Positions 4,910 through 29,904 of a DNA stretch of 35,181 nucleotides are shown piece by piece; position 1 is the first letter of the stretch; the number at the start of each line of letters is the position of its first letter. The position numbers were made by a program, and so were the translations under genes. Origin of the DNA: a virus. The notes under the pieces are model-generated. The model did no database searches, was not told where the DNA came from, and saw nothing but the letters and a program-made list of their open reading frames with translations. Where the stretch lies: positions 1 through 35,181 of IMG/VR virus record IMGVR_UViG_3300024302_000027; one strand, written 5' to 3'.

Positions 4910-5205
4910 GTAAACTCAGCAAAATTGAGCAGCTTCGCAAAGATGATTACTACTTCAAAAACATACCTGACACCATCCGCATTCCTGCGATTGGCGCAAA
5001 CCTGGAAGAGGTCGTAAAGCCAACAGAGGGTGCGACGCTCGATGATCTAGCATTTGCCGTTTTGGCATTGCAGGAAAAATCATCTGCACTTTATTCGCTG
5101 ACTGAATCTGTTCGCAATCTTTATGACCAAGCGCGCAAAAACGGTGCCTTGGGTGCGCAGGTGGCAATTGATTGCCTTCCAGATGCGAAGGGTGGCTCAA
5201 AATGA
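4906..5205 (+). CDS. Hypothetical phage early protein, 99 residues
   Basis: I do not recognise this protein. It is a small soluble protein with a basic N-terminus (MSKLSKIEQLRKDDYYF) and a helical C-terminal half containing an ALQEKSSALYSLTESVRNL segment that could form a short coiled coil. It overlaps both its neighbours by ATGA and so is translated with them. Its place before the RecA-like ATPase suggests a role in the replication or recombination module. Confidence 0.7.
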   Translation: MSKLSKIEQLRKDDYYFKNIPDTIRIPAIGANLEEVVKPTEGATLDDLAFAVLALQEKSSALYSLTESVRNLYDQARKNGALGAQVAIDCLPDAKGGSK

Positions 5206-6092
5206 ACCTCCCAATTATTTCAGCGGATGAACGCCTTAAAGAAACCCGAGGTATCAAGGGTGTCATTTTCGGAAAATCCGGCATTGGCAAAACTTCGCTG
5301 CTCTGGACGCTAAATTCGTCAACCGCGCTGTTCTTTGACTTGGAAGCTGGTGACTTGGCCATCGAAGGCTGGCCCGGTGACACAATTCGCCCACGCACTT
5401 GGCAAGAATGCCGTGACTTCGCCGTTTTCATCGGCGGGTCAAATCCGGCCCTGCGTGAAGACCAAGTCTACAGTCAGGCACATTTCGATGCTGTCTGTGA
5501 GCAGTTTGGTGATCCGTCAGCCCTCGGCAAGTATGAGACTGTCTTCATTGATAGCATCACGGTCGCCGGTCGTCTTTGCTTCCAGTGGGCAAAAGGCCAG
5601 CCACAGGCCTTTTCCGACCGTACCGGCAAACCTGACATGCGCGGTGCTTATGGCCTGCATGGTCAGGAAATGATCGCCTGGCTAACCCACCTTCAACATA
5701 CCCGGGGCAAGAACATCTGGTTTGTTGGAATCCTCGACGAGAAGCTTGATGACTTCAACCGCAAGGTATTCACCCCGCAGATTGATGGTTCAAAGACCGG
5801 CAATGAGCTGCCTGGCATCGTTGATGAAGTCATCTCCATGGCTGAAATCACTGAAGGTGATGGTGAGGCCTATCGGGCGTTTGTCTGTCAAACCCTGAAC
5901 CCCTACGGCTTTCCGGCAAAAGATCGAAGCGGACGTCTTGATGTGATCGAGGAGCCGCACCTTGGCCGTCTGATGGAAAAAATCAGCGGCCCCGCAAAAC
6001 CGGCAAACGAAAGGTTGGAGTTCTCAAGGCCACAACCTTCCGCCGCCGATACCCCCACCACCAATGACGATGAAGGAGCACAACAATCATGA
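5202..6092 (+). CDS. Phage RecA-like ATP-binding protein (AAA_24 type)
   Basis: A 296-residue ATPase. The Walker A motif FGKSGIGKTS is at about residues 23-32, and a Walker B-like strand (TVFIDSITVAG) at about 117-127. This pattern and length match phage nucleotide-binding proteins of the AAA_24 group, which are thought to act in DNA replication or annealing-type recombination. The C-terminal 30 residues are low-complexity and acidic, probably a flexible tail. The ATG at 5202 overlaps the previous stop as ATGA and is preferred over a start 30 bases upstream. It overlaps the next gene in the same way. In related phages the following gene often encodes a DNA-binding partner, which fits here. 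Confidence 0.85.
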   Translation: MNLPIISADERLKETRGIKGVIFGKSGIGKTSLLWTLNSSTALFFDLEAGDLAIEGWPGDTIRPRTWQECRDFAVFIGGSNPALREDQVYSQAHFDAVCEQFGDPSALGKYETVFIDSITVAGRLCFQWAKGQPQAFSDRTGKPDMRGAYGLHGQEMIAWLTHLQHTRGKNIWFVGILDEKLDDFNRKVFTPQIDGSKTGNELPGIVDEVISMAEITEGDGEAYRAFVCQTLNPYGFPAKDRSGRLDVIEEPHLGRLMEKISGPAKPANERLEFSRPQPSAADTPTTNDDEGAQQS

Positions 6093-6718
6093 CCGGTGCA
6101 TGGAACGATTACAACGATGCAGGCTCTCAAGCCTCTTATGATCTGATCCCCAAGGGCACCATTGTGCCAGTGCGGATGACCATTAAACCGGGTGGCTTTG
6201 ACGATCCGGCGCAAGGTTGGACCGGCGGTTACGCCACCCACAATGACACCACCGGATCGGTTTATCTGAGTGCCGAGTTTGTCATTACCGAAGGACCGTT
6301 TGCCAAACGCAAGGTCTGGAGCCTGATTGGCTTGCTCAGCCTTAAAGGTCCCGAGTGGGGCAGCATGGGTCGGTCATTCGTGCGTGGCATCCTCAATTCA
6401 TCACGGGGGCTGTCGGACAAGGACAATTCTCCGCAGGCTCAAAATTCACGTCGTATCAACGGATTTGCCGATCTCGATGGCATTGAGTTTCTGGCAAAGA
6501 TTGATGTGGGCAAGGATGCCAATGGCGATCCCAGGAACGAGATCCACTTTGCGGTTATGCCCAATCACAAAGATTGGGAGACCTATCAGAAAAGTGGTGG
6601 TCTGTGGAAACCGGGTGTTGTCACCGCTGGAGTAATTACACCGGCACCGGCAACAACGTCCGGCACTGCGGACACGCAACCGGCCAGCAACCCTAATCGC
6701 CCGAATTGGGCGCAATAG
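6089..6718 (+). CDS. Phage protein, possible ssDNA-binding partner of the ATPase
   Basis: This 209-residue protein has a beta-rich N-terminal half (IPKGTIVPVRMTIKPGGF, then VYLSAEFVITEGPFAKRKVW) and a Pro/Thr/Ala-rich tail ending RPNWAQ. The strand pattern with GPFAKRKVWS and the disordered tail resemble phage proteins encoded next to AAA_24 ATPases, which may bind single-stranded DNA. I cannot name a family with certainty. It begins within the stop of the ATPase gene (ATGA), and AAGGAG lies upstream of the start. The next gene, an SF2 helicase, starts 11 bp downstream with its own AGGAGG site. Confidence 0.65.
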   Translation: MTGAWNDYNDAGSQASYDLIPKGTIVPVRMTIKPGGFDDPAQGWTGGYATHNDTTGSVYLSAEFVITEGPFAKRKVWSLIGLLSLKGPEWGSMGRSFVRGILNSSRGLSDKDNSPQAQNSRRINGFADLDGIEFLAKIDVGKDANGDPRNEIHFAVMPNHKDWETYQKSGGLWKPGVVTAGVITPAPATTSGTADTQPASNPNRPNWAQ

Positions 6719-6728
6719 GAGGGCGGTA

Positions 6729-8405
6729 ATGTTACTTCGCCCACGCCAGAAAACCTTCGTCGAGCGTAGCGTAAGCGCGCTCGGCGAACACGGCAACACT
6801 CTGGCTGTTGCTTCGACCGGATTTGGAAAAACCATCGCGCTTGCGGGAGTTGCTGGCCAATTGCTGGCAGGCAACGATGCCAAAGCCTGTGTGTTGGCCC
6901 ACCGTGATGAGCTAACGGCTCAGAATGAGTTGAAGTTTTCCAAGGTTAACCCAAACATCAGCACTTCCAAGTTTGATGCCGTGACCAAATCATGGCGCGG
7001 GCAGACGACCTTCGCCATGGTGCCAACATTGGCCCGTAAGGCAAACCTGGACGCCATGCCTGTGCTTGATTTGCTGGTGATTGATGAAGCCCATCATGTG
7101 GCTGCTGACAGTTACCGGCGTATCATCGATCAAGCCAAGAACAAGAACCCGGACGTTAAGATATTCGGCGTCACGGCGACCCCAAATCGTGGAGATAAGA
7201 AAGGCCTGCGCCCGGTCTTTTCCAATGTTTCTGATCAGGTGTTTATCGGCGAGTTGATTGCCTCTGGCCACTTGGTTCCGCCGCGAACCTTTGTGATCGA
7301 TGTCGGAGCCCAGGAAGCCCTCAAATCCGTGCGCAAGACGGTGGACGACTTCGATATGAAGGCGGTTGACGCCATCATGAACAAGTCTCCCATTACCGAT
7401 GCTGTTATCCGCCATTGGCGCGAGAAGGCTGGTAATCGTCAAACCGTGGTGTTTTGCTCGACGGTTGATCATGCCCGCAATGTCCGCGATGCCTTTGTTG
7501 CTGAAGGTATCAGTGCTGGGATGGTTTATGGTGACATGGGCACGAAGGCACGACGGATTGTGCTTCAGTCCTATGATGAAGGCGACATTCAAGTCCTTGT
7601 TAACGTCGCCGTACTCACGGAAGGTTGGGACCACCAGCCAACAAGTTGCATTATTCTGCTTAGGCCATCGTCTTATAAGTCCACCATGATCCAGATGGTC
7701 GGGCGTGGTTTGCGCACGGTTGATCCTAGCGAATATCCCGGTGTCGTAAAAACCGACTGCATCGTTTTAGACTTTGGCACGTCAAGCCTGCTGCATGGGT
7801 GTCTTGAGCAAGACGTCAATCTGGATGGTAGGACGGGATCAGGTCCTGCTTTGACCAAGGAATGCCCTGAGTGTGAAGCTCATGTGCCTTTGGCGGTGAT
7901 GGAATGCCCCCTGTGCGGTTACCATTTCTATTCTGATAAAACCGATGACCTGCAGCCAATTTCTGATTTTGTCATGTCAGAGGTCGATCTGCTCAAACGT
8001 TCCAGTTTCCAATGGTGCGATCTGTTTGGTGACGACGCAGCCCTTATTGCCAGCGGCTTCAATGCCTGGGGCGGTATCTTCTTTCTGCAGGGGCGTTGGC
8101 ATAGTCTTGGTGGCGGCAAGAATTTACGTCCCCGCCTTCTTGCAATGGGTGAGCGCACGGTATGTTTGGCAGCAGCCGATGACTGGCTCAATGAGAATGA
8201 GACAGATGAAAGCGCTCACAAAACCCGTTCATGGCTAAGCCAATCAGCAACAGACAGGCAGCTTCAATTCTTGCCCGCCGAATACCGCCAGGACTTCGGT
8301 CTGACCCGGTATCAAGCCTCTGCGCTATTGGCCTTTACCTTCAATAAATCTGCGATCACACAACTGGTGACATCGGCCTCTGATGGTGACCGGAGGGCGG
8401 CATGA
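6729..8405 (+). CDS. SF2 DEAD/DEAH-box helicase with zinc ribbon (RadD-like)
   Basis: A 558-residue superfamily 2 helicase that would unwind or remodel branched DNA using ATP. Motif I is STGFGKTI (about 29-36), motif II is DEAH (119-122), motif III is TATPNR (149-154) and motif VI is QMVGRGLRT (322-330). A four-cysteine zinc ribbon, CPEC...CPLC, follows at about 379-396. The arrangement is like RadD/YejH-type helicases. The last 150 residues are not recognised and may contact a partner. AGGAGGGCGG precedes the ATG at a good distance. The gene lies in the recombination-type replication module between the ATPase pair and the DUF6511 and nuclease genes. Confidence 0.9.
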   Translation: MLLRPRQKTFVERSVSALGEHGNTLAVASTGFGKTIALAGVAGQLLAGNDAKACVLAHRDELTAQNELKFSKVNPNISTSKFDAVTKSWRGQTTFAMVPTLARKANLDAMPVLDLLVIDEAHHVAADSYRRIIDQAKNKNPDVKIFGVTATPNRGDKKGLRPVFSNVSDQVFIGELIASGHLVPPRTFVIDVGAQEALKSVRKTVDDFDMKAVDAIMNKSPITDAVIRHWREKAGNRQTVVFCSTVDHARNVRDAFVAEGISAGMVYGDMGTKARRIVLQSYDEGDIQVLVNVAVLTEGWDHQPTSCIILLRPSSYKSTMIQMVGRGLRTVDPSEYPGVVKTDCIVLDFGTSSLLHGCLEQDVNLDGRTGSGPALTKECPECEAHVPLAVMECPLCGYHFYSDKTDDLQPISDFVMSEVDLLKRSSFQWCDLFGDDAALIASGFNAWGGIFFLQGRWHSLGGGKNLRPRLLAMGERTVCLAAADDWLNENETDESAHKTRSWLSQSATDRQLQFLPAEYRQDFGLTRYQASALLAFTFNKSAITQLVTSASDGDRRAA

Positions 8406-8408
8406 TCC

Positions 8409-8816
8409 ATGGCACACATATCCAAAAAAGCAGCCCTGCGGCAGCGGTTATGGCATCCGCGAGGAACGCTTTGTTCCGTCTGTCGGCGACCAACTCGTGG
8501 TTTTGGTTGGTTCGACCGCCGGTCTTCGAAGCGTCTTCGACGCATGCTTTGGTTCTGTTCCATGGCTTGTCAGGGTTACTGGTCTCGATTGGCGAAGGAG
8601 GGATTGGGCATGGTTGACCTGACCGAGCAAGAACAAGCCGCCATTCGCTACGCCATGAAAATGGCATCGGAGATCATGGAAGAGATCGGCTGGCAGACCC
8701 GCTTGATTGACCTGTCTGAAGCGCAGGTCCTCACCCTCATTGAAGTTGCTGTTGGTGGCTTCCAGGACGCCATGCTGGCAACGGCCAAGGCCGATGACAC
8801 GGAGATCCCATTCTGA
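8409..8816 (+). CDS. DUF6511 domain phage protein
   Basis: This 135-residue protein has two parts. The basic N-terminus contains a probable zinc site, LCSVCRRPTRGFGWFD plus FCSMACQ. The C-terminal helical part reads VDLTEQEQAAIRYAMK, EEIGW and LTLIEVAVGGFQDAM, the pattern I associate with DUF6511 in alphaproteobacterial prophages. The start at 8409 has GGAGGGCGG about 9 bases upstream. The frame starting at 8402 is in a different register and is rejected. The last base is shared with the next ATG (TGATG). Function is unknown; the location suggests a DNA-metabolism accessory. Confidence 0.8.
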   Translation: MAHISKKAALRQRLWHPRGTLCSVCRRPTRGFGWFDRRSSKRLRRMLWFCSMACQGYWSRLAKEGLGMVDLTEQEQAAIRYAMKMASEIMEEIGWQTRLIDLSEAQVLTLIEVAVGGFQDAMLATAKADDTEIPF

Positions 8817-9577
8817 TGCTTGATTACAATTCTTCGGCCAACTTTGCCGACCAAATAAACAGCTTCATCGACGAAGCCCTGGTGGTGGAAAATCAGGCTC
8901 AGCCGTCCCGCAAATATCTGGGTGGATCGCGGCTTGGTGTCGGCTGCGACCGTGCCCTGCAATTTGAATACGCTCAGGCCCCCAAAGACGATGGGCGGGA
9001 TTTTAAAGGACAGACCCTGCGCATCTTTGCCGCTGGTCACCTGTTTGAGGACATGGCCATCCGCTGGCTGCATATGGCCGGGTTCGATCTTTACACCACC
9101 AAAGGCAATAAGCCGGGTGGTGAGCAATTTGGCTTCTCGGTGGCGGATGGTCGTATTCGCGGACATGTGGACGGCATCATCAATGCAGGTCCTGTGCTGA
9201 CGGGTTTCCCAGCACTTTGGGAATGCAAATCCATGAACGCCAAGTCCTGGAAGGATACGGTGAAGAAAGGGTTAGCTGTCTCCAAGCCGGTCTATGCGGC
9301 TCAGGTTTCCGTCTACCAGGCTTATATGGAAGCGACGGTACCCGGCATCTCCCAGAACCCGGCCCTATTCACTGCCATCAATAAAGACACATCGGAAGTC
9401 TATCACGAGCAGGTCCCGTTCGATGGCGGGTTAGCCCAGAAGATGAGCGACAAGGGCGTTCGCGTCATTCAGGCGACCGAGGCCGGTGAACTGCTTCCTC
9501 GTATTGCCCAGTCAGCTGATTTTTTCGAGTGCAAATTCTGTGATTGGTCAGATCGGTGCTGGAGATCGGACGTATGA
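8816..9577 (+). CDS. PD-(D/E)XK nuclease with probable Fe-S cluster (Cas4/RecB-like)
   Basis: A 253-residue nuclease, probably an exonuclease for recombination-dependent replication. The catalytic set is visible: GHLFE (74-78), the acidic HVDG (Asp119), ECK (136-138) and a Gln in YAAQVSVYQAY (about 160-170). A single Cys near the N-terminus (GCDRALQFEY, Cys44) and three near the C-terminus (Cys239, Cys242, Cys248) match the four-Cys Fe-S arrangement of Cas4 and AddB-type nucleases. No cas genes are nearby, so a CRISPR role is unlikely. It overlaps DUF6511 at its start and the primase/helicase gene at its end (ATGA). Confidence 0.88.
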   Translation: MLDYNSSANFADQINSFIDEALVVENQAQPSRKYLGGSRLGVGCDRALQFEYAQAPKDDGRDFKGQTLRIFAAGHLFEDMAIRWLHMAGFDLYTTKGNKPGGEQFGFSVADGRIRGHVDGIINAGPVLTGFPALWECKSMNAKSWKDTVKKGLAVSKPVYAAQVSVYQAYMEATVPGISQNPALFTAINKDTSEVYHEQVPFDGGLAQKMSDKGVRVIQATEAGELLPRIAQSADFFECKFCDWSDRCWRSDV

Positions 9578-11775
9578 GTGGTGACGTGGTGAAACTCAGC
9601 GATTGGTGCGATTTTAATTCAGCAGCCCCGCAAAGACAGGATGATGATCGGCAATCAGAGACGAGTGTCGATGACCTCAAATCTTGCCTTCTCGGCAATT
9701 TGCGAGGGGTACTGTCCTACCTGTTTCCCGCCGGGGTGTTCCGTCATGGCAAGTTTCTGGTTGGTGATGTTCAGGGCAACAAGGGCGAAAGCCTGACTGT
9801 TGAGCTGACCGGCAACAAAGCCGGAATGTGGCATGATTTTGCCACCAAGGACGGCGGCGACATTGTCAGCCTGTGGGCGGTGGCAACGGGCCGCAACACT
9901 CAGTCGGATTTTCCATCGTTGCTTGATGACATCAGGCATTGGTTTGGTGAACCTGGAAAAGAAAGCACTCATGTTCAATCTGAGATAACAGCACCCGTAG
10001 ATGAACTGGGCCCGGTAACGGCTAAGTGGGATTACCACGGTGGTGATGGCACGTTGCTGGCCTGCGTCTATCGATACGATCCGCCCGACGGCAAACAGTT
10101 TAGGCCGTGGGATGTGCTTGCCCGGAAGATGAAGGCTCCTAACCCGCGCCCGCTCTACAACCAACCTGCCATAAGATCGGCGGAAGAAGTAATCCTGGTA
10201 GAAGGTGAGAAGGCTGCTGAGGCTCTCATCAAGCAAGGCATATGTACCACCACAGCCATGAACGGTGCCAGTGCGCCGGTTGAAAAAACCAATTGGTCAC
10301 CGCTTGCTGCTAAGCGCGTATTGATCTGGCCCGACAAGGACGCAGCCGGATGGCAGTACGCCGAAGGTGCTGCAAAGGCAGTGCTAAATGCCGGAGCCGT
10401 CTCAGTTTCCATTCTTATGCCGCCGGATGATAAGCCGGACAAATGGGATGCAGCCGATGCTGTTGTTGACGACATGGATGTTGCTACATTCATTGCGAAC
10501 GCGCCCCGTCAGTCCATTGCTGCCCCACAGTCAAATGCCCGTGCTTTCAGTCTAGGCCATATGCTCAGCGACACCTCTCCCATGCCAGAAGACATTATCG
10601 CTCCGCGTGTCCTGACGCCGTCAGGGATGCTGGTGTTTGGCGGCGCACCCAAGGTTGGCAAGAGCGACTTCTTGCTCAGCTGGTTGGTCCACATGGCAGC
10701 TGGTGTTGAGTTTCTATCTTTCAAGCCTTCAAGCCCATTGCGGGTGTTCTATCTGCAAGCAGAAATCCAATACCATTACCTGCGTGAACGCATTCGCCAG
10801 ATAAATTTGCCGCCCGAGGTTATCACTGACGCACACGAAAATCTGGTGATCACGCCACAGCTTAAACTGATCTTGAACGAAGCAGGCCTTGCTACGGTCA
10901 CGGCTCTTATCGCCAAGCACTTTCCAGACGGCCTCGACATCATCGTCATTGATCCCATCCGCAACGTCTTTGACGGCGGCGAGGCCGGGGCCAGTGAGAA
11001 TGATAACAACGCCATGCTGTTCTTCCTGCGTGACCGGGTCGAAGAGCTGCGAGATTCTGTTGATCCCAACGCAGGCATCATCCTGGTTCACCACACCAAG
11101 AAGCTATCCAAGAAGCAGGTGGATGAAGATCCGTTCCAGGCATTATCCGGGGCCGGTTCACTGCGGGGGTATTACAGCTCAGGCATGATCCTGTTTCGCC
11201 CGGACGAGGCTCAACCAGAACGCCGTCTGATCACCGAGCTTCGCAATGGCCCAGCCTTGGCAGCAAAAATTGTCGACAAACATGAAGGCCAATGGATTGA
11301 GATTGATCCATCATCGGAGCGTTTGGTTCGTCAGGAATATGGTGAAAAGCTGGATGCTGAACGCCTGCGCAAGCGCGATGTGATCCTAAACACCCTGTTC
11401 GAGGAAGCCAGGTTAGGTAACGTTTATACCTCTATTCAGTTTGCAGAGGCTTTTGAAGGGAAGGTTGGCTTGGGTGGGAGAAGCACCATAGCTGAGCGCA
11501 TCAGCGTGCTTGCCACCAAGGGGCACATCAAGTTTTTCAAGAATCCAGAACAGCATGATTTGCCGCCATTACGGCGATCAAAGTTTGGTTATCTGTGCGT
11601 TGAAACCATGCACCTTGGTCTTCCTGAAGATGTCGTTGATGCCGAGACCGGAGAGGTTGCAGAGGTCGTTCATCCCCTCCTGCCAACACACTTTAAATGC
11701 CGCCATACCGGTGTCGCCCTCGAGGTCGAAAACCCGAATATCTGGGTCTACCCGGATGTGGAGGAGGATCAATGA
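9574..11775 (+). CDS. Phage primase/helicase: Toprim plus RecA-like ATPase
   Basis: A 733-residue replication protein. An N-terminal part (about 40-130) includes GMWHDFATKDGGDIVSLW, as in DNA primases that prepare the template. A Toprim domain follows, with VEGEKAAE (about 209-216) and IWPDKDAAG (about 251-259). A RepA/DnaB-like ATPase comes next, with Walker A GAPKVGKSD (about 357-365), Walker B DIIVIDP (about 455-461) and a VHHTKK motif near 515. The C-terminal part may hold a winged helix. It would prime and unwind DNA at the phage fork. The ATG at 9574 overlaps the nuclease stop and is preferred to one 30 bases upstream. A repeat-rich gene-free region follows immediately, as often seen beside phage origins. 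Confidence 0.88.
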   Translation: MSGDVVKLSDWCDFNSAAPQRQDDDRQSETSVDDLKSCLLGNLRGVLSYLFPAGVFRHGKFLVGDVQGNKGESLTVELTGNKAGMWHDFATKDGGDIVSLWAVATGRNTQSDFPSLLDDIRHWFGEPGKESTHVQSEITAPVDELGPVTAKWDYHGGDGTLLACVYRYDPPDGKQFRPWDVLARKMKAPNPRPLYNQPAIRSAEEVILVEGEKAAEALIKQGICTTTAMNGASAPVEKTNWSPLAAKRVLIWPDKDAAGWQYAEGAAKAVLNAGAVSVSILMPPDDKPDKWDAADAVVDDMDVATFIANAPRQSIAAPQSNARAFSLGHMLSDTSPMPEDIIAPRVLTPSGMLVFGGAPKVGKSDFLLSWLVHMAAGVEFLSFKPSSPLRVFYLQAEIQYHYLRERIRQINLPPEVITDAHENLVITPQLKLILNEAGLATVTALIAKHFPDGLDIIVIDPIRNVFDGGEAGASENDNNAMLFFLRDRVEELRDSVDPNAGIILVHHTKKLSKKQVDEDPFQALSGAGSLRGYYSSGMILFRPDEAQPERRLITELRNGPALAAKIVDKHEGQWIEIDPSSERLVRQEYGEKLDAERLRKRDVILNTLFEEARLGNVYTSIQFAEAFEGKVGLGGRSTIAERISVLATKGHIKFFKNPEQHDLPPLRRSKFGYLCVETMHLGLPEDVVDAETGEVAEVVHPLLPTHFKCRHTGVALEVENPNIWVYPDVEEDQ

Positions 11776-14372: not shown

Positions 14373-15626
14373 TTGAACGCTCAAATCATCAACATCGGTG
14401 ACAAGGTCGAGATGATCGCCACTGGCGAACTCTCCTGCCACCCGGATAATCCGCGCCGGGGAAACGTCGATGAAATCAGGTCCAGCATTCGGAGCAATGG
14501 ATTTTACGGAGCGCTGGTCGTTCACAGATCAACGGGTCACATCCTTGCGGGCAACCACCGTTTCATGGCGGCCCAAGCGGAAGGGTTGGACAAGGTCCCG
14601 GTCATCTACGTGGATGCCAGCGATGATGATGCCAAAGCCATTCTGGTCGGAGACAACCGCCTTTCGGATTTAGCGGAAAATGATCCGGAACTTCTCGTCG
14701 CCTTGTTGCAAGCCATTCAATCTCGCGAACAAGGCCTGACCGGAACCGGTTATTCTGATGACGACCTTGCTGCACTATTGGCAGCCGGTATGGATGATGG
14801 AGAGGCGCTGGAGGGGGAAGACGATGTTCCCGATACGCCGGAAGATCCAATTTCCCGCCCCGGTGATTTGTGGGTTCTTGGTAACCACCGTTTAATTTGC
14901 GGTGATGCGACAATTGCCACCGACGTGGAGCGATTACTGGAAACGGTCAAACCGCTCCTCATGGTCACAGACCCGCCTTACGGTGTCGAATATGACCCGT
15001 CATGGCGCAACAAGGCTGGTGCTGCGGGAACCAAGAGAACTGGTAAAGTTTTAAACGATGATCGTGCCGATTGGCGTGAAGCCTGGGCTTTGTTCCCGGG
15101 TGACGTTGCGTATGTCTGGCACGGTGCATTGCATGCGGCGACTGTCGCTGAGAGCCTTGAGGAATCGGGCTTTAAAGTCCGCTCGCAGATCATCTGGGCC
15201 AAGGAAAGATTGGTTTTGAGTCGTGGTGATTACCACTGGCAACATGAACCCTGCTGGTATGCGGTCAAAAAAACAGGCAAGGGTCACTGGGCTGGTGATC
15301 GTAAGCAGACAACGCTCTGGCAGATATCCAGCCGGGATCAGGACGCAAAAACTGTTCATGGAACCCAAAAACCTGTCGAATGTATGCGCCGCCCCATTTT
15401 AAACAATTCAAGTCCCGGTCAAGCTGTCTACGAACCCTTCATGGGATCTGGCACCACGTTGATCGCCGCTGAAAGTACGGGTCGCGTTTGCTATGGCTCT
15501 GAACTGAGCCCGGCCTATGTGGACGTGGCAGTTTTACGTTGGCAAAAAATTACAGGAGGAAAAGCAATGCTGAATGGCGATGGCCGTTCGTTTGATGAGA
15601 TCAAGGAAGGGAAGGCCGCAGCATGA
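14373..15626 (+). CDS. DNA methyltransferase with N-terminal ParB-like domain
   Basis: A 417-residue fusion. Residues about 10-100 form a ParB/sulfiredoxin-like domain, with HPDNPRRGNVDEIRSSI, then GHILAGNHRFMAA and LVGDNRLSDLA. The C-terminal half is an amino-methyltransferase that would make N6-methyladenine or N4-methylcytosine from SAM. Motif IV DPPYGVEY is at 200-207, and motif I FMGSGTT at 356-362. Catalytic motif before SAM motif is the beta-class order. The start is TTG with GAAGAGA upstream; an ATG at 14412 is the alternative. No restriction endonuclease is adjacent, so it is probably a solitary phage enzyme that protects phage DNA or tunes packaging or expression. Confidence 0.92.
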   Translation: MNAQIINIGDKVEMIATGELSCHPDNPRRGNVDEIRSSIRSNGFYGALVVHRSTGHILAGNHRFMAAQAEGLDKVPVIYVDASDDDAKAILVGDNRLSDLAENDPELLVALLQAIQSREQGLTGTGYSDDDLAALLAAGMDDGEALEGEDDVPDTPEDPISRPGDLWVLGNHRLICGDATIATDVERLLETVKPLLMVTDPPYGVEYDPSWRNKAGAAGTKRTGKVLNDDRADWREAWALFPGDVAYVWHGALHAATVAESLEESGFKVRSQIIWAKERLVLSRGDYHWQHEPCWYAVKKTGKGHWAGDRKQTTLWQISSRDQDAKTVHGTQKPVECMRRPILNNSSPGQAVYEPFMGSGTTLIAAESTGRVCYGSELSPAYVDVAVLRWQKITGGKAMLNGDGRSFDEIKEGKAAA

Positions 15627-25293: not shown

Positions 25294-26244
25294 ATGTCGC
25301 GAGCCTATGGTTCGAGCGCAACACTGCTGCTCAAACGAGAAACCACCTACGGCACATCGCCGTCCGGGAACTTCATCCAGATGCCTTTTAACAGCGTCTC
25401 TCTGGGCTCCGAACAGGGCCTGATTGATGACCCGGTGTTGGGTCAGGGACGTGATCCGCTGGCTCCCTTGCAGGATGTGATCAGCGATGAGGGTGATATC
25501 ATGGTGCCCATGGATCCCCGATATCTGGGCCTCTGGCTCACCGGCTTGTTCGGTGATCCAACCAGCACCGATAATCTGGACGGAACCTTCGATCATGTGT
25601 TCGTGTCGGGCGTCGATGCACTGCCCAGTTATTCTCTTGAAGTCGGCATGGCCCAGGTGCCCGCCTTCTTCATGCATGCAGGCGTGGTTCTCAATTCCAT
25701 CGCGTTGGATTTCCAACGCTCCGGTGCGGCGGCGGTAACCATTAATGCAATCGCCCAGGGAGAGACCCGTAACGGCACATCCCAGGGCGGCACACCCAGC
25801 ACACTTGCTTTTAACCGGATCAGTCAATTTCAAGGCTCCATCAAGAAAGCAGGTGCTGCGGTGGCCAACCTCACATCGGGGTCACTGACCTATTCCAATA
25901 ACCTGGAGAAAATCGAGACCATCCGCTCCGACGGATTGATCGATGGTGCAGATCCAACAGTGGCGTCATTGTCGGGTCGCATCGATGTGCGGTTTTCGGA
26001 CACCACCCTGATTGATGCGGCAACAAGTGGCACGCCGGTAGACCTGGAGTTTGGTTACACCGTCGGTACATCCAGCGTCATGTTCACCGCCCATGAAGTT
26101 TACCTGCCCAAGCCCAAGCTGGCCGTGGAAGGCCCCGGTGGTATTCAGGCCAGCTTTGATTTTCAAGGAGCCAAGAATGAAGCGGCAGGTCGCATGCTGA
26201 CTGTGACGCTGGTCAACGATTTGGATGGGACGGTGTACGCATGA
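25294..26244 (+). CDS. Tail tube protein
   Basis: A 316-residue tube subunit of the type with two similar beta-rich halves: SSATLLLKRETTYGTSP near the start, DPLAPLQDVISDEGDIMVPM, then ALDFQRSGAAAVTINAIAQG and the C-terminal EGPGGIQASFDFQGAKNEA. Such proteins stack as rings around the tape measure. CAGGAGAC precedes the ATG. The end overlaps the chaperone gene by ATGA. Confidence 0.88.
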   Translation: MSRAYGSSATLLLKRETTYGTSPSGNFIQMPFNSVSLGSEQGLIDDPVLGQGRDPLAPLQDVISDEGDIMVPMDPRYLGLWLTGLFGDPTSTDNLDGTFDHVFVSGVDALPSYSLEVGMAQVPAFFMHAGVVLNSIALDFQRSGAAAVTINAIAQGETRNGTSQGGTPSTLAFNRISQFQGSIKKAGAAVANLTSGSLTYSNNLEKIETIRSDGLIDGADPTVASLSGRIDVRFSDTTLIDAATSGTPVDLEFGYTVGTSSVMFTAHEVYLPKPKLAVEGPGGIQASFDFQGAKNEAAGRMLTVTLVNDLDGTVYA

Positions 26245-26744
26245 TCTCCTTAAAACAACCGAGTGAGCCATTTGACATTGAGCTTCCCTACGGTATTACC
26301 GTCACCGTTACACCCTTAACGACGACCGCCATGGCAGCCGCTCAGGCAGGTGCCCGGCGGCGGGTTGAGGCTGTGGAAGCGCAAGTACGGGACCGTAAGG
26401 ACTCTGGCCTGTCACTGGACGGCCTCCCAGATCTCAGCATTGAAGAGGAACGGGACGGCTTCCTGCAATGCCAGGTCGTTTATGAATTGGCGACCCGCCA
26501 GATCACCGCCTGGGCGGGCATCGAAGATAATCCGCCGGTCACCCGGGACAATATCATCGCGGTTATGGATATCTATCCGGTCGGCGAGCAGTTCCTGCAA
26601 AAGCTAACCCTCCAGCAGATGTTGCTCAACGCCGCAAAAAACGCATCCGGGCTCTCTGCCTCTGGCACTTCAAGCCAGGTGGAGGGCCCGGATACTGCCA
26701 AGGCTGCCAAGATGAAGATGCCGCCTGTTCAACAAGAAAACTAA
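26241..26744 (+). CDS. Tail assembly chaperone (gpG-like), frame 0 product
   Basis: A 167-residue protein that would coat the tape measure protein during tail assembly. The body contains PFDIELPYGITVTVTPL, AAAQAGARRRVEAVEAQV and QKLTLQQMLLNAAKNASG. The position between tail tube and tape measure genes is that of lambda G. A slippery A AAA AAC (26636-26642) within codons 132-134 leads to a longer product, listed separately. The last 30 residues (SGLSASGTSSQVEG and on) are low-complexity, as expected for a tail that is read in two frames. Confidence 0.85.
   Translation: MISLKQPSEPFDIELPYGITVTVTPLTTTAMAAAQAGARRRVEAVEAQVRDRKDSGLSLDGLPDLSIEEERDGFLQCQVVYELATRQITAWAGIEDNPPVTRDNIIAVMDIYPVGEQFLQKLTLQQMLLNAAKNASGLSASGTSSQVEGPDTAKAAKMKMPPVQQEN
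26636..26693 (+). promoter_or_regulatory. -1 frameshift signal: slippery heptamer and hairpin
   Basis: A AAA AAC in the gene's reading frame is a canonical X XXY YYZ site. Downstream, ATCCGGGC (26645-26652) pairs perfectly with GCCCGGAT (26686-26693), and CTGGC/GCCAG (26662-26666 and 26674-26678) forms an inner stem. The 2-base spacer is shorter than usual, so the lowest pairs may be melted at the pause. Confidence 0.7.
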
Positions 26745-26998
26745 ATCCGGGCGAACGCCAGTGTCCCTACCAGGAACATGCCCTGCAATCGCCGGAAGAA
26801 CACCAGGCCTGGGACGTGCTCAATGCCTCTCTTGGGCAACTGCGCTTTGCGCCGTCCGGCCATGTGGCGGGTATTGATATGAATGCGGCCCTTAAAATTG
26901 TTGAGGTTCGAGGGTTCGAGCCGGGCGTCATGTCCGAGCTTCTGAGCGCGGCAGAAGGTGGCCTGATTGAAGCGATGAACCAGAAAGAATTGGACTAA
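26637..26998 (+). CDS. Tail chaperone -1 frameshift extension (gpGT-like)
   Basis: The -1 frame stays open from well upstream of the slippery site to a TAA at 26996-26998, which overlaps the tape measure ATG at 26998. Shifting at AAAAAAC would make a 252-residue fusion: 134 residues of frame 0 plus 118 new ones. The new part has protein-like composition, with GPGYCQGC and ERQCPYQ (possibly a Cys cluster), then SPEEHQAWDVL and a C-terminal MSELLSAAEGGLIEAMNQ. The stretch from 26816 might look like a stand-alone 60-residue gene, but it lacks a ribosome site and the extension explains the coding signal upstream of it. Confidence 0.75.
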
Positions 26999-29904
26999 TG
27001 GCAAAAGCCAAACATACCTATGCAATCCGTCTCAGCGTTGACGGTGGTGGCAAGGTCAAGGCTGAGCTCATGGATGTGGGCCGCGCTGGTGACAAGTCCC
27101 TGAAGAAGATTGAAAAGGCGGGTGGCAAAGCATCTCTAGGCCTTACCAAGTTGTCTGATCGCGCCCAGGCCTTGGGCCGTAATATGAAGTTTCTCTACGG
27201 CGCTATTGCCGCCGCCGGGGCCATTCGCGGTCTGCAGGAAATGGTCAAACTCTATGCCGACTTTGAAGCTGGCCTGATCGGCGTTGGCAAGACGGCAAAC
27301 CTGTCCAAGACGGAACTGGCCTCACTAGGCCAAGACATCGATGCGCTTTCCAAACGCATCCCCGTGGCCACCGACGAACTGTTGGCTATTGCCCAAAGTG
27401 CCGGTCAGCTAGGTGTGAAGGGTGCGGCCAATATTCTCAAGTTTACCGAGACCGTGGCCAAGCTTGGCACAGCGACGGATTTATCGGGCAATGACGCGGC
27501 CATGGCGTTGGCGCGTATTCTCAATGTCACTGGTGAGACCATGGACACCGTGGATGTGCTGGGATCGGTAATCGTGGCTCTGGGCAATAACTTTGCCGCC
27601 ACGGAAAGCCAGATTACAGAAATGACCACCGAGGTCGCGCGGGCGACGTCCGTCTTCGGTGTGAGCTCTGCCCAGGCATCGGCGCTGGCGGCAGCATTGG
27701 CTTCTGTTGGCGTTAAATCGGAAGTGGCAGGCACGTCCGTTGGCCGGGTCATGCATATGATGGACGCCGCTGTGCGCAGTGGCGGCAAGCATTTGGATAT
27801 TCTCTCGAAAATCACAGGCCAGACCGGCGCACAAATTAAAACCTTGTTTGCTCAAGATTCTACAGCAGCCTTCGTGCTGTTCATCGAAGGGCTAAAACGG
27901 ATCAGTGACGCTGGTGGATCGGCAGCGGAAGCCATGGCGGCATTGGGCCTGTCCGACCAGCGATTGTTAAAAACACTGCCGGTGTTGGCGAACCGGGCTG
28001 ATCTGCTGGCTACGGCTCTTGATCTTGCCAGCCGCGAAACTGAAAACGCCACGGCCCTGAACGAGGAAGCGGCGAAGGCGTTTGAGAGCCTGAACAGCCA
28101 GACGGAGCTGATGTGGAACAACATCAAATCTCTGGCCCGTTCTATTGGTGAAGATCTGGCTCCCGGGGTGACCACAGCGGTCAAGGAACTGGGCAGTTTG
28201 GCCAATCAAGCCAGCGTTGCCTATGAGCAATTAAAACTGTTGGCCCAAGGTGATTTTAATCTTGAGGGCCTGAGCCTCGGCAGCACCCGCTCGATTGTCG
28301 AGGAGCGCCGTGCCGAGCTTCAGGAAATTGCCCGTGAGCTGAAAGAACTGGGTGATGTTGAGTTTTTGGACGATCCCCTTGGTTGGGGTCGCAAGGTGGC
28401 ATTGGAGCGCCAGCTCAAGGAAAAGGCAGCCATCTATCGGCAATGGTCGACAAAGCTAGCCTGGATGCAGCGGGATATGGGTGGAAAACCCGATCCAAAA
28501 ACCAACACCCCCACGCCTGATGACACCGTAGAGATTGATCTCAAAGCTGCACAAGTTAGAGCTGACCGCATCACCAAACTTGAAAAAGACCTGCAGCGAC
28601 AACTGTTCACCCTGACCCATCAGGGGGCGGAGCGTATTCGGGCTGAATATGAACAACTGGCAAAAGACGTTGAGGCCTTGCTTGCCCCGGATGGCAGCAA
28701 CCAGTCTCAGGTTGATGCCCTGATGGACCAGGCCGCCTCTGTCCGCGATGCCAAGCTGGCACGGCTTGCCGCCAAAGCACAGGAAGCGGCGAACCGAATT
28801 ACTGAGGCCAATCGCAAGGTTATAGATGGATTACGCGCCGAGCACGATGCGTTGGCCATGACCGACAAGCAGCGCTTTGTCTCTCAGGCCCTGCGTCGAC
28901 TGTCGGCTGAGGCCACGGATGTTCAACAACGCCAGGTGCGCGAACTGGCCGGAGCCTTGTTTGAAGAACAACAGGCCATAGAAGCCCGCAACAAGGCGGA
29001 AGAGGATGCGATCAAGCTGCGAGAGAAGGGAAAGTCTCTCACGATCAGTCTGCGCACGGCGCAAGAATCCTACAAAGCCGAAATTGCCGATCTGAATAAA
29101 TTGTTGGCCGAAGGAGCCATTGCCCAGGAAACCTTCGCCCGAGCATCCGAACAAGCCTATGAGCGCATGCTGAACGCCAGTCAAGACTGGTCGGCAGGTG
29201 TTTCCCGGGCCTTGCGTGATTATGGTAAACAGGCCGGTGACGCGGCACAGATGTTTGAGGATGTCACCTCCAGCGCCCTGAAAGCATCAGAAGACGCCTG
29301 GGTCAACTGGGCCCGGACCGGCAAGCTTTCGGTGGGAGATTTCTTTACGTCATTGGAAGAGGCAGCACTCAGGGCGGCCTATCGGCTCTTGATCTTCAAA
29401 CCCATGGAAAGCTTTCTTGAAGGTCTGATTGGCAGCTTCAGTTTTGATTTTTCCAGCTCATCCGGCCTGACAGCGTTCAATAACGGTGTCGGGCTGGCCC
29501 CTCAGTTTCGCAGCACAGCCTTTGCCCATAGCGGCGGCATGATCGGTGTGACGCCGCTTGCCCATCGCCCGGTCGACCCGGCGGTGTTCAATAATGCGCC
29601 CCGATTCCATTCAGGCGGACTGGTCGGCGGCGAAGTACCGGTGATTGCCAAGAAAGGTGAAGTCATCGGCTGGCCCGGCCAGATGCGCGAGGCCTTTGGT
29701 TCTGAAGTCGTGGTTCAGGTGATCGATCAACGCGGGACGCAGTCGGCTTCAATCGAAACTTCGTCTACGCGCGGGCCGTCAGGCGAGGAGTTGATCCGGA
29801 TTTTGGTACGGGACGCTGTAGAACAGGAATTCGACAGCGGTGGGGCTGATCGAATGATGAAGCGCAACTATGCCGCCAGCCGGGCGGGGATTCGCAGGGA
29901 GTAG
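26998..29904 (+). CDS. Tail tape measure protein
   Basis: A 968-residue protein that sets tail length. The N-terminal quarter (about 60-300) is the TP901-like conserved core: LYADFEAGLIGVGKTANL, VARATSVFGVSSAQASALA and VGRVMHMMDAAVRSGGK. It is followed by long helical, Glu/Lys/Ala-rich regions (about 430-750), as expected for an extended rod. The C-terminus has the GGLVGGEVPVIAKKGEVI segment common in tape measures. Start overlaps the chaperone frameshift stop by one base. Length predicts a tail of roughly lambda class. Confidence 0.95.
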   Translation: MAKAKHTYAIRLSVDGGGKVKAELMDVGRAGDKSLKKIEKAGGKASLGLTKLSDRAQALGRNMKFLYGAIAAAGAIRGLQEMVKLYADFEAGLIGVGKTANLSKTELASLGQDIDALSKRIPVATDELLAIAQSAGQLGVKGAANILKFTETVAKLGTATDLSGNDAAMALARILNVTGETMDTVDVLGSVIVALGNNFAATESQITEMTTEVARATSVFGVSSAQASALAAALASVGVKSEVAGTSVGRVMHMMDAAVRSGGKHLDILSKITGQTGAQIKTLFAQDSTAAFVLFIEGLKRISDAGGSAAEAMAALGLSDQRLLKTLPVLANRADLLATALDLASRETENATALNEEAAKAFESLNSQTELMWNNIKSLARSIGEDLAPGVTTAVKELGSLANQASVAYEQLKLLAQGDFNLEGLSLGSTRSIVEERRAELQEIARELKELGDVEFLDDPLGWGRKVALERQLKEKAAIYRQWSTKLAWMQRDMGGKPDPKTNTPTPDDTVEIDLKAAQVRADRITKLEKDLQRQLFTLTHQGAERIRAEYEQLAKDVEALLAPDGSNQSQVDALMDQAASVRDAKLARLAAKAQEAANRITEANRKVIDGLRAEHDALAMTDKQRFVSQALRRLSAEATDVQQRQVRELAGALFEEQQAIEARNKAEEDAIKLREKGKSLTISLRTAQESYKAEIADLNKLLAEGAIAQETFARASEQAYERMLNASQDWSAGVSRALRDYGKQAGDAAQMFEDVTSSALKASEDAWVNWARTGKLSVGDFFTSLEEAALRAAYRLLIFKPMESFLEGLIGSFSFDFSSSSGLTAFNNGVGLAPQFRSTAFAHSGGMIGVTPLAHRPVDPAVFNNAPRFHSGGLVGGEVPVIAKKGEVIGWPGQMREAFGSEVVVQVIDQRGTQSASIETSSTRGPSGEELIRILVRDAVEQEFDSGGADRMMKRNYAASRAGIRRE

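Follow-up and report, generated by a model that had tools for sequence, protein, structure and literature searches.

The closest known systems, lambda G/G-T and HK97 gp13/gp14, place a chaperone gene ahead of the tape measure gene, and a -1 frameshift near the end of the chaperone yields a short product and a long one (PMC5009743). In lambda, the tape measure protein is bound by many copies of G, and G-T, the rare fusion, connects it to the tail tube subunit (PMC5009743). The authors describing the genomes of Rhodobacter capsulatus phages likewise regard a frameshift as usual in the chaperone genes (PMC8601537). We examined a locus with the same organization in a 35,181-nucleotide stretch of DNA from a marine phage (IMG/VR record IMGVR_UViG_3300024302_000027, hereafter the window). 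An earlier note on this DNA, made from the letters alone, proposed a lambda G/GT-type frameshift here. Our analysis bears this out: the place of the slippery heptamer, an open -1 frame, a covarying stem, purifying selection, and the chaperone resemblance of both halves agree, and the locus very probably produces two chaperone versions by programmed -1 ribosomal frameshifting of this type. The mechanism is already known from lambda G/GT; what is new is a four-cysteine subclass of the extension and a reading of two Pfam domains (DUFs).

Gene order and reading frames at the chaperone locus

The features discussed below, all on the + strand, are as follows.

26241–26744, +: G-like tail assembly chaperone ORF in the 0 frame, 167 aa; residues 1–134 are common to the fusion and 135–167 form a tail found only in the 0-frame product
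26636–26642, +: slippery heptamer A AAA AAC, in phase, its place kept in relatives
26642–26998, +: -1 frame extension, a T-like domain with DUF7697, 118 codons plus TAA, assigned from the Pfam match, dN/dS, and fold model
26645–26693, +: outer stem extension in the window, 26645–26648 pairing with 26690–26693, which yields an apparent 2-nt spacer
26649–26689, +: conserved core hairpin, 26649–26660 pairing with 26678–26689, starting 6 nt after the heptamer
26696–26767, +: four-cysteine region of the extension (C19, C22, C29, C41; YCQGC...AAC...QCPY), supported by its conservation in relatives
26996–27000, +: TAATG, the -1 frame stop overlapping the tape measure start, read from the sequence
26998–29904, +: tail length tape measure protein ORF, matching several tape measure families, among them PHROG 13339 (E 6e-77)

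The chaperone ORF is preceded by a minor tail protein (phrog_290) and a tail terminator and followed by the tape measure gene. Around the slip site, ORF 26241–26744 reads GCC GCA AAA AAC GCA, which places the heptamer in the phase GCA|AAA|AAC. The -1 frame opens at 26531 and closes at the TAA at 26996–26998, overlapping the tape measure ATG at 26998; the T frame of lambda also reaches the tape measure start. The phase of the heptamer, the 118-codon open frame (26642–26998), and this overlap had all been described in the earlier note, as had the predicted 252-residue product with junction NAAKNRIR, which the sequence reproduces as 134 plus 118 aa. In 33 of 63 relatives, the start of the next ORF is offset by +2 or -1 relative to the -1 stop. 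We saw no clear Shine-Dalgarno sequence or ribosome-binding site ahead of the tape measure ATG (26980–27000), and given this and the overlap of the two genes, translation of the tape measure may perhaps be coupled in part to the frameshifted ribosomes.

The G half matches PHROG 313, "Tail assembly chaperone," only at E 1.4e-4. Its fold model (pLDDT 85.6, with low confidence in the 0-frame tail) resembles viral tail assembly chaperones, and the best match among solved structures is the HK97 gp13 chaperone 2ob9, at a weak Z of 4.8 over 94 residues (4.5 Å). Neither the G half nor the extension found a match in an NCBIfam search.

Conservation of the frameshift signal

Taken singly, neither the heptamer nor the open frame is convincing. 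A AAA AAC occurs 11 times in the window against 6.7 expected, so it is not rare by itself, and a 118-codon open frame arises by chance in about 2.7% of Markov sequences. We therefore turned to relatives; the evidence for a signal is that heptamer, frame, and stem are conserved together across them. Searching viral contigs, species genomes, and annotated phages with the extension gave 83 non-redundant loci, with extension identity down to about 35–45%. These take in alphaproteobacterial MAG contigs, Rhodobacter phage RcKemmy, and cyanophage Nsp-JY21, the extension locus of which is identical to that of Sc-Yong805-1. A heptamer stands at the aligned place in 81 of the 83 (A AAA AAC in 67, G GGA AAC in 13, and A AAA AAA in 1), the swaps among these preserving the form X XXY YYZ. 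The -1 frame is open for at least 107 codons in every one of the 83; stops in this frame among close relatives, which the earlier note had named as evidence against its proposal, occur in 0/83.

The two loci without a canonical heptamer carry GGGGAAG (L103) and GGGGGAA (L104). At these sites (L103:1192–1198 and L104:1174–1180), GAGGGGAAG or GAGGGGGAA replaces the canonical heptamer, and the Cys4 extension is kept in the -1 frame; in L103 the hairpin is missing too. Separately, in one clade (L087, L088, L091, and L111–L116) the 0-frame stop lies one codon past the heptamer, as in AAC GGT TAG, which leaves the short product with next to no tail of its own.

The stem downstream of the heptamer is a continuous 16 bp in the window (26645–26660 with 26678–26693), topped by a small inner stem; the perfect stem and inner stem reported in the earlier note are both there, but the 8 bp it gave falls short of the full length. 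The predicted hairpin has an MFE of -36.9 kcal/mol (z -4.6), with 0/200 shuffles as good. The 2-base spacer that the note considered unusually short is literally 2 nt in the window, but the conserved core begins 6 nt on. This apparent spacer reflects four additional outer pairs missing from most relatives; the innermost of them (alignment columns 13–55) forms a standard pair in only 21/72 sequences. We accordingly rejected the 2-nt spacer as a real peculiarity, since the outer four pairs are poorly kept in the aligned relatives. As judged from the alignment, the spacer is short because the stem of an otherwise ordinary signal has been lengthened locally, 6 nt being an ordinary distance, and the outer pairs are presumably already melted by a ribosome sitting at the heptamer.

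The 12-pair core is well supported by the aligned sequences. Across 72 of them, 87% of its cells are standard pairs, compared with 40–60% in slid controls (the stem of L025 is out of register by one base, and its pairing is undercounted when tallied by column). Double-change cells number 37 vs 12.9 in shuffles, covariation is 0.217 vs 0.129, and the clearest paired change couples codon 5 (CTC/CGC) with codon 14 (GGA/GGC), giving 24 double changes at one pair. Compared with synonymous-codon resampling of the -1 frame, the stem of the window sequence scores z -4.1 (taken from the identical L108 row), and the mean over the 83 loci is -2.6. Such a hairpin would putatively stimulate slippage, a role that is common, though not universal, in lambda G/GT-type systems.

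These data also bear on whether the message itself, rather than the ribosome, is shifted, by transcriptional slippage on the run of A. There are six A in the window and eight in the cyanophage locus L026, as slippage of this kind might use. However, G GGA AAC, which contains no long run, serves 13 relatives and 7/30 loci of a second Pfam family (DUF1799, below), and a covarying hairpin held at a fixed distance of 6–8 nt fits ribosome pausing. We consider a transcriptional origin very improbable and read the signal as ribosomal.

Selection on the two frames was measured as the median dN/dS between the window and 20 relatives; the selection set contains near-duplicate rows, such that some lineages are counted more than once in pooled figures. 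dN/dS is 0.06 in G before the slip and 0.14 in the part of the -1 extension past the overlap; for the overlap itself, the -1 frame gives 0.145 and the 0 frame 1.08. The -1 frame is under purifying selection, and this check, which the earlier note had proposed among relatives, thus returns about 0.14. Given the value of about 1.08, the 0-frame tail (residues 135–167) is unconstrained. The overlap shows fewer synonymous differences (pS 0.32 vs 0.58–0.60), as expected where an RNA stem is also selected.

Extensions of this kind have been annotated in more than one way. Public records of two cyanophages show two genes, VarioGold has DUF1799 annotated as a separate gene after the chaperone (PMC9658991), and the distant RcKemmy homologue is annotated as a joined CDS. 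The two-gene annotations would suit an extension encoded by its own gene, on which ribosomes initiate internally and no frameshift takes place. Against this, the first ATG, GTG, or TTG in the -1 frame of the window is at 26816 (residue 59), past all four cysteines, and ahead of the cysteines there is only an ATC at 26645. Because no ATG, GTG, or TTG occurs from the frame opening at 26531 to residue 59, ordinary internal initiation cannot make the cysteine region in the window. Among the relatives, 49/83 are without such a codon before the first CxxC, and internal initiation leaves the conserved heptamer and stem unexplained. We give it hardly any credence next to ribosomal frameshifting.

The extension, its cysteines, and two Pfam families

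The extension matches Pfam DUF7697 (PF24752; E 9.3e-9, 35.5 bits vs a curated cut-off of 27), as do 74 of 75 relatives, and scores 17 bits against DUF1799 (PF08809), below the cut-off of 26. Among named viral proteins, its fold model (pLDDT 86.9) best matches those labeled "Tape measure chaperone" in enterobacterial phages. Among solved structures there is no significant match by sequence or fold (best Z 4.3, to unrelated proteins), and comparison with lambda T detects no sequence similarity (hhalign probability 0.7%).

We sampled genomes with the Pfam models, obtaining 30 DUF1799 loci (L131–L160) and 11 DUF7697 loci. In 30/30 DUF1799 and 10/11 DUF7697 loci the domain is preceded by a long 0 frame and by a heptamer in the right phase, either A AAA AAC or G GGA AAC, and in most DUF1799 loci the 0-frame stop comes immediately after that heptamer. 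The sole exception, L127, has the parts of its DUF7697 domain in three frames and is a copy that is either broken or badly sequenced. Given how regularly a heptamer precedes them, DUF1799 and DUF7697, families without a named function, look like T domains reached by frameshifting, that is, frameshift-made chaperone ends. The Pfam DUF7697 model spans only the last ~45 residues and names no function, whereas in the window this domain forms the end of a predicted frameshifted chaperone, with the Cys4 region ahead of it. The window matches DUF1799 weakly; at every sampled DUF1799 locus the domain lies behind an in-phase heptamer in the same arrangement. A Cys4 region is absent in 28/30 DUF1799 loci, the other two being below-cut-off matches; on these sequences, it is a mark of DUF7697 and not of DUF1799.

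GYCQGC and QCPYQ, singled out in the earlier note as a possible small metal site, are both present in the extension. The note did not associate this feature with lambda GT, and no cysteine indeed occurs in lambda T or in the -1 extension of HK97, whereas four are conserved in the window extension. Across 75 sequences C19, C22, and C41 are invariant and C29 is kept in at least 90%, and the pattern YCxxC...C...CP, arranged as two pairs, is found in 83/83 loci. Spacing between the cysteines ranges from x3/x2 to x6/x17 among relatives, and the fold model has a pLDDT of about 70 in residues 11–40. Retention of the four cysteines in all 83 loci strengthens the metal-site guess, and they likely constitute a putative metal site. 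RcKemmy, RcBaka, and other Rhodobacter capsulatus phages carry a homologous extension (29–41% identity by tblastn) with the same WHF...YCxxC..C..CP motif. Their hairpin begins 6 nt past the heptamer, like the window core; unlike in the window, their heptamer is G GGA AAC and the cysteine loop is shorter.

The hairpin overlaps extension codons 2–18, with its 3' arm encoding GGGP, and one could ask whether the codon constraint imposed by the RNA is what gave rise to the cysteine motif. C19, C22, C29, and C41 all lie downstream of the last pair (26693), yet are still invariant or nearly so, and L103 keeps its cysteines without a hairpin. This origin is therefore most unlikely.

We infer metal binding from the conserved pattern, and structural zinc is the simplest and most likely reading of the putative Cys4 site. 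Lambda-like tail tip proteins can carry iron-sulfur clusters, and the shortest forms of the motif, CxxCxxxCxxCP in L025 and L026, resemble Fe-S-type spacing. This invites the alternative that, with frameshifting as described, the four residues ligate an iron-sulfur cluster or serve in redox switching. The wide variation in spacing, from one extreme of the range given above to the other, is more easily tolerated by structural zinc, and we regard a cluster or switch as unlikely, though less so than the other alternatives considered here. Among papers judged by title and abstract, none dealt with zinc or cysteines in tail chaperones made by frameshifting. Overall, we think it somewhat better than an even bet that DUF7697 ends represent a subclass of frameshift-made T domains not described before, with a Cys4 metal site (zinc, less likely Fe-S) required to link the tape measure complex with the tail tube, and, as part of the same proposal, that DUF1799 and DUF7697 are generally reached only by -1 frameshifting.

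Proposed mechanism, host, and other genes in the window

In the mechanism we propose, the majority of ribosomes would translate the G-like chaperone as far as its stop at 26744. Others, fewer in number, would be held up by the hairpin, move back by one base on A AAA AAC, and continue in the -1 frame. In dual-reporter assays, a tail chaperone cluster yielded 6–7% (PMC3711429). These shifted ribosomes would give the 252-aa G-T fusion, with a T part composed of the DUF7697 domain and its conserved putative Cys4 site. By analogy with lambda, G would coat the tape measure protein, the rare G-T would recruit the tail-tube subunit, and both would leave before the tail is completed. The occurrence of slippage, its rate, and the roles of G and G-T in the phage of the window are inferred.

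The locus offers a clean comparative case of recoding, in which heptamer, spacing, hairpin, and two frames can be traced over 83 relatives. It points as well to what two Pfam families of unknown function may do, families that annotations miss or split into separate genes. Should the metal site prove real, T domains would come in more than one type, and the metal would provide a handle on the handover of the tail tube by the chaperone.

One relative, L108 (JABIFY010000089.1, 37,822 bases), carries an extension 100% identical to that of the window and is binned in the alphaproteobacterial MAG SI053_bin31. The phage of the window, or one very near it, has thus been binned with an alphaproteobacterium, a hint at an alphaproteobacterial host.

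Elsewhere in the window, positions 5172–11775 hold a replication and recombination block comprising a Sak4-like annealing protein, a DNA helicase, a Cas4-domain exonuclease, and a primase/helicase. The ORF at 14373–15626 matches ParB-like partition proteins in its N-terminal part and DNA methyltransferases in its C-terminal part.
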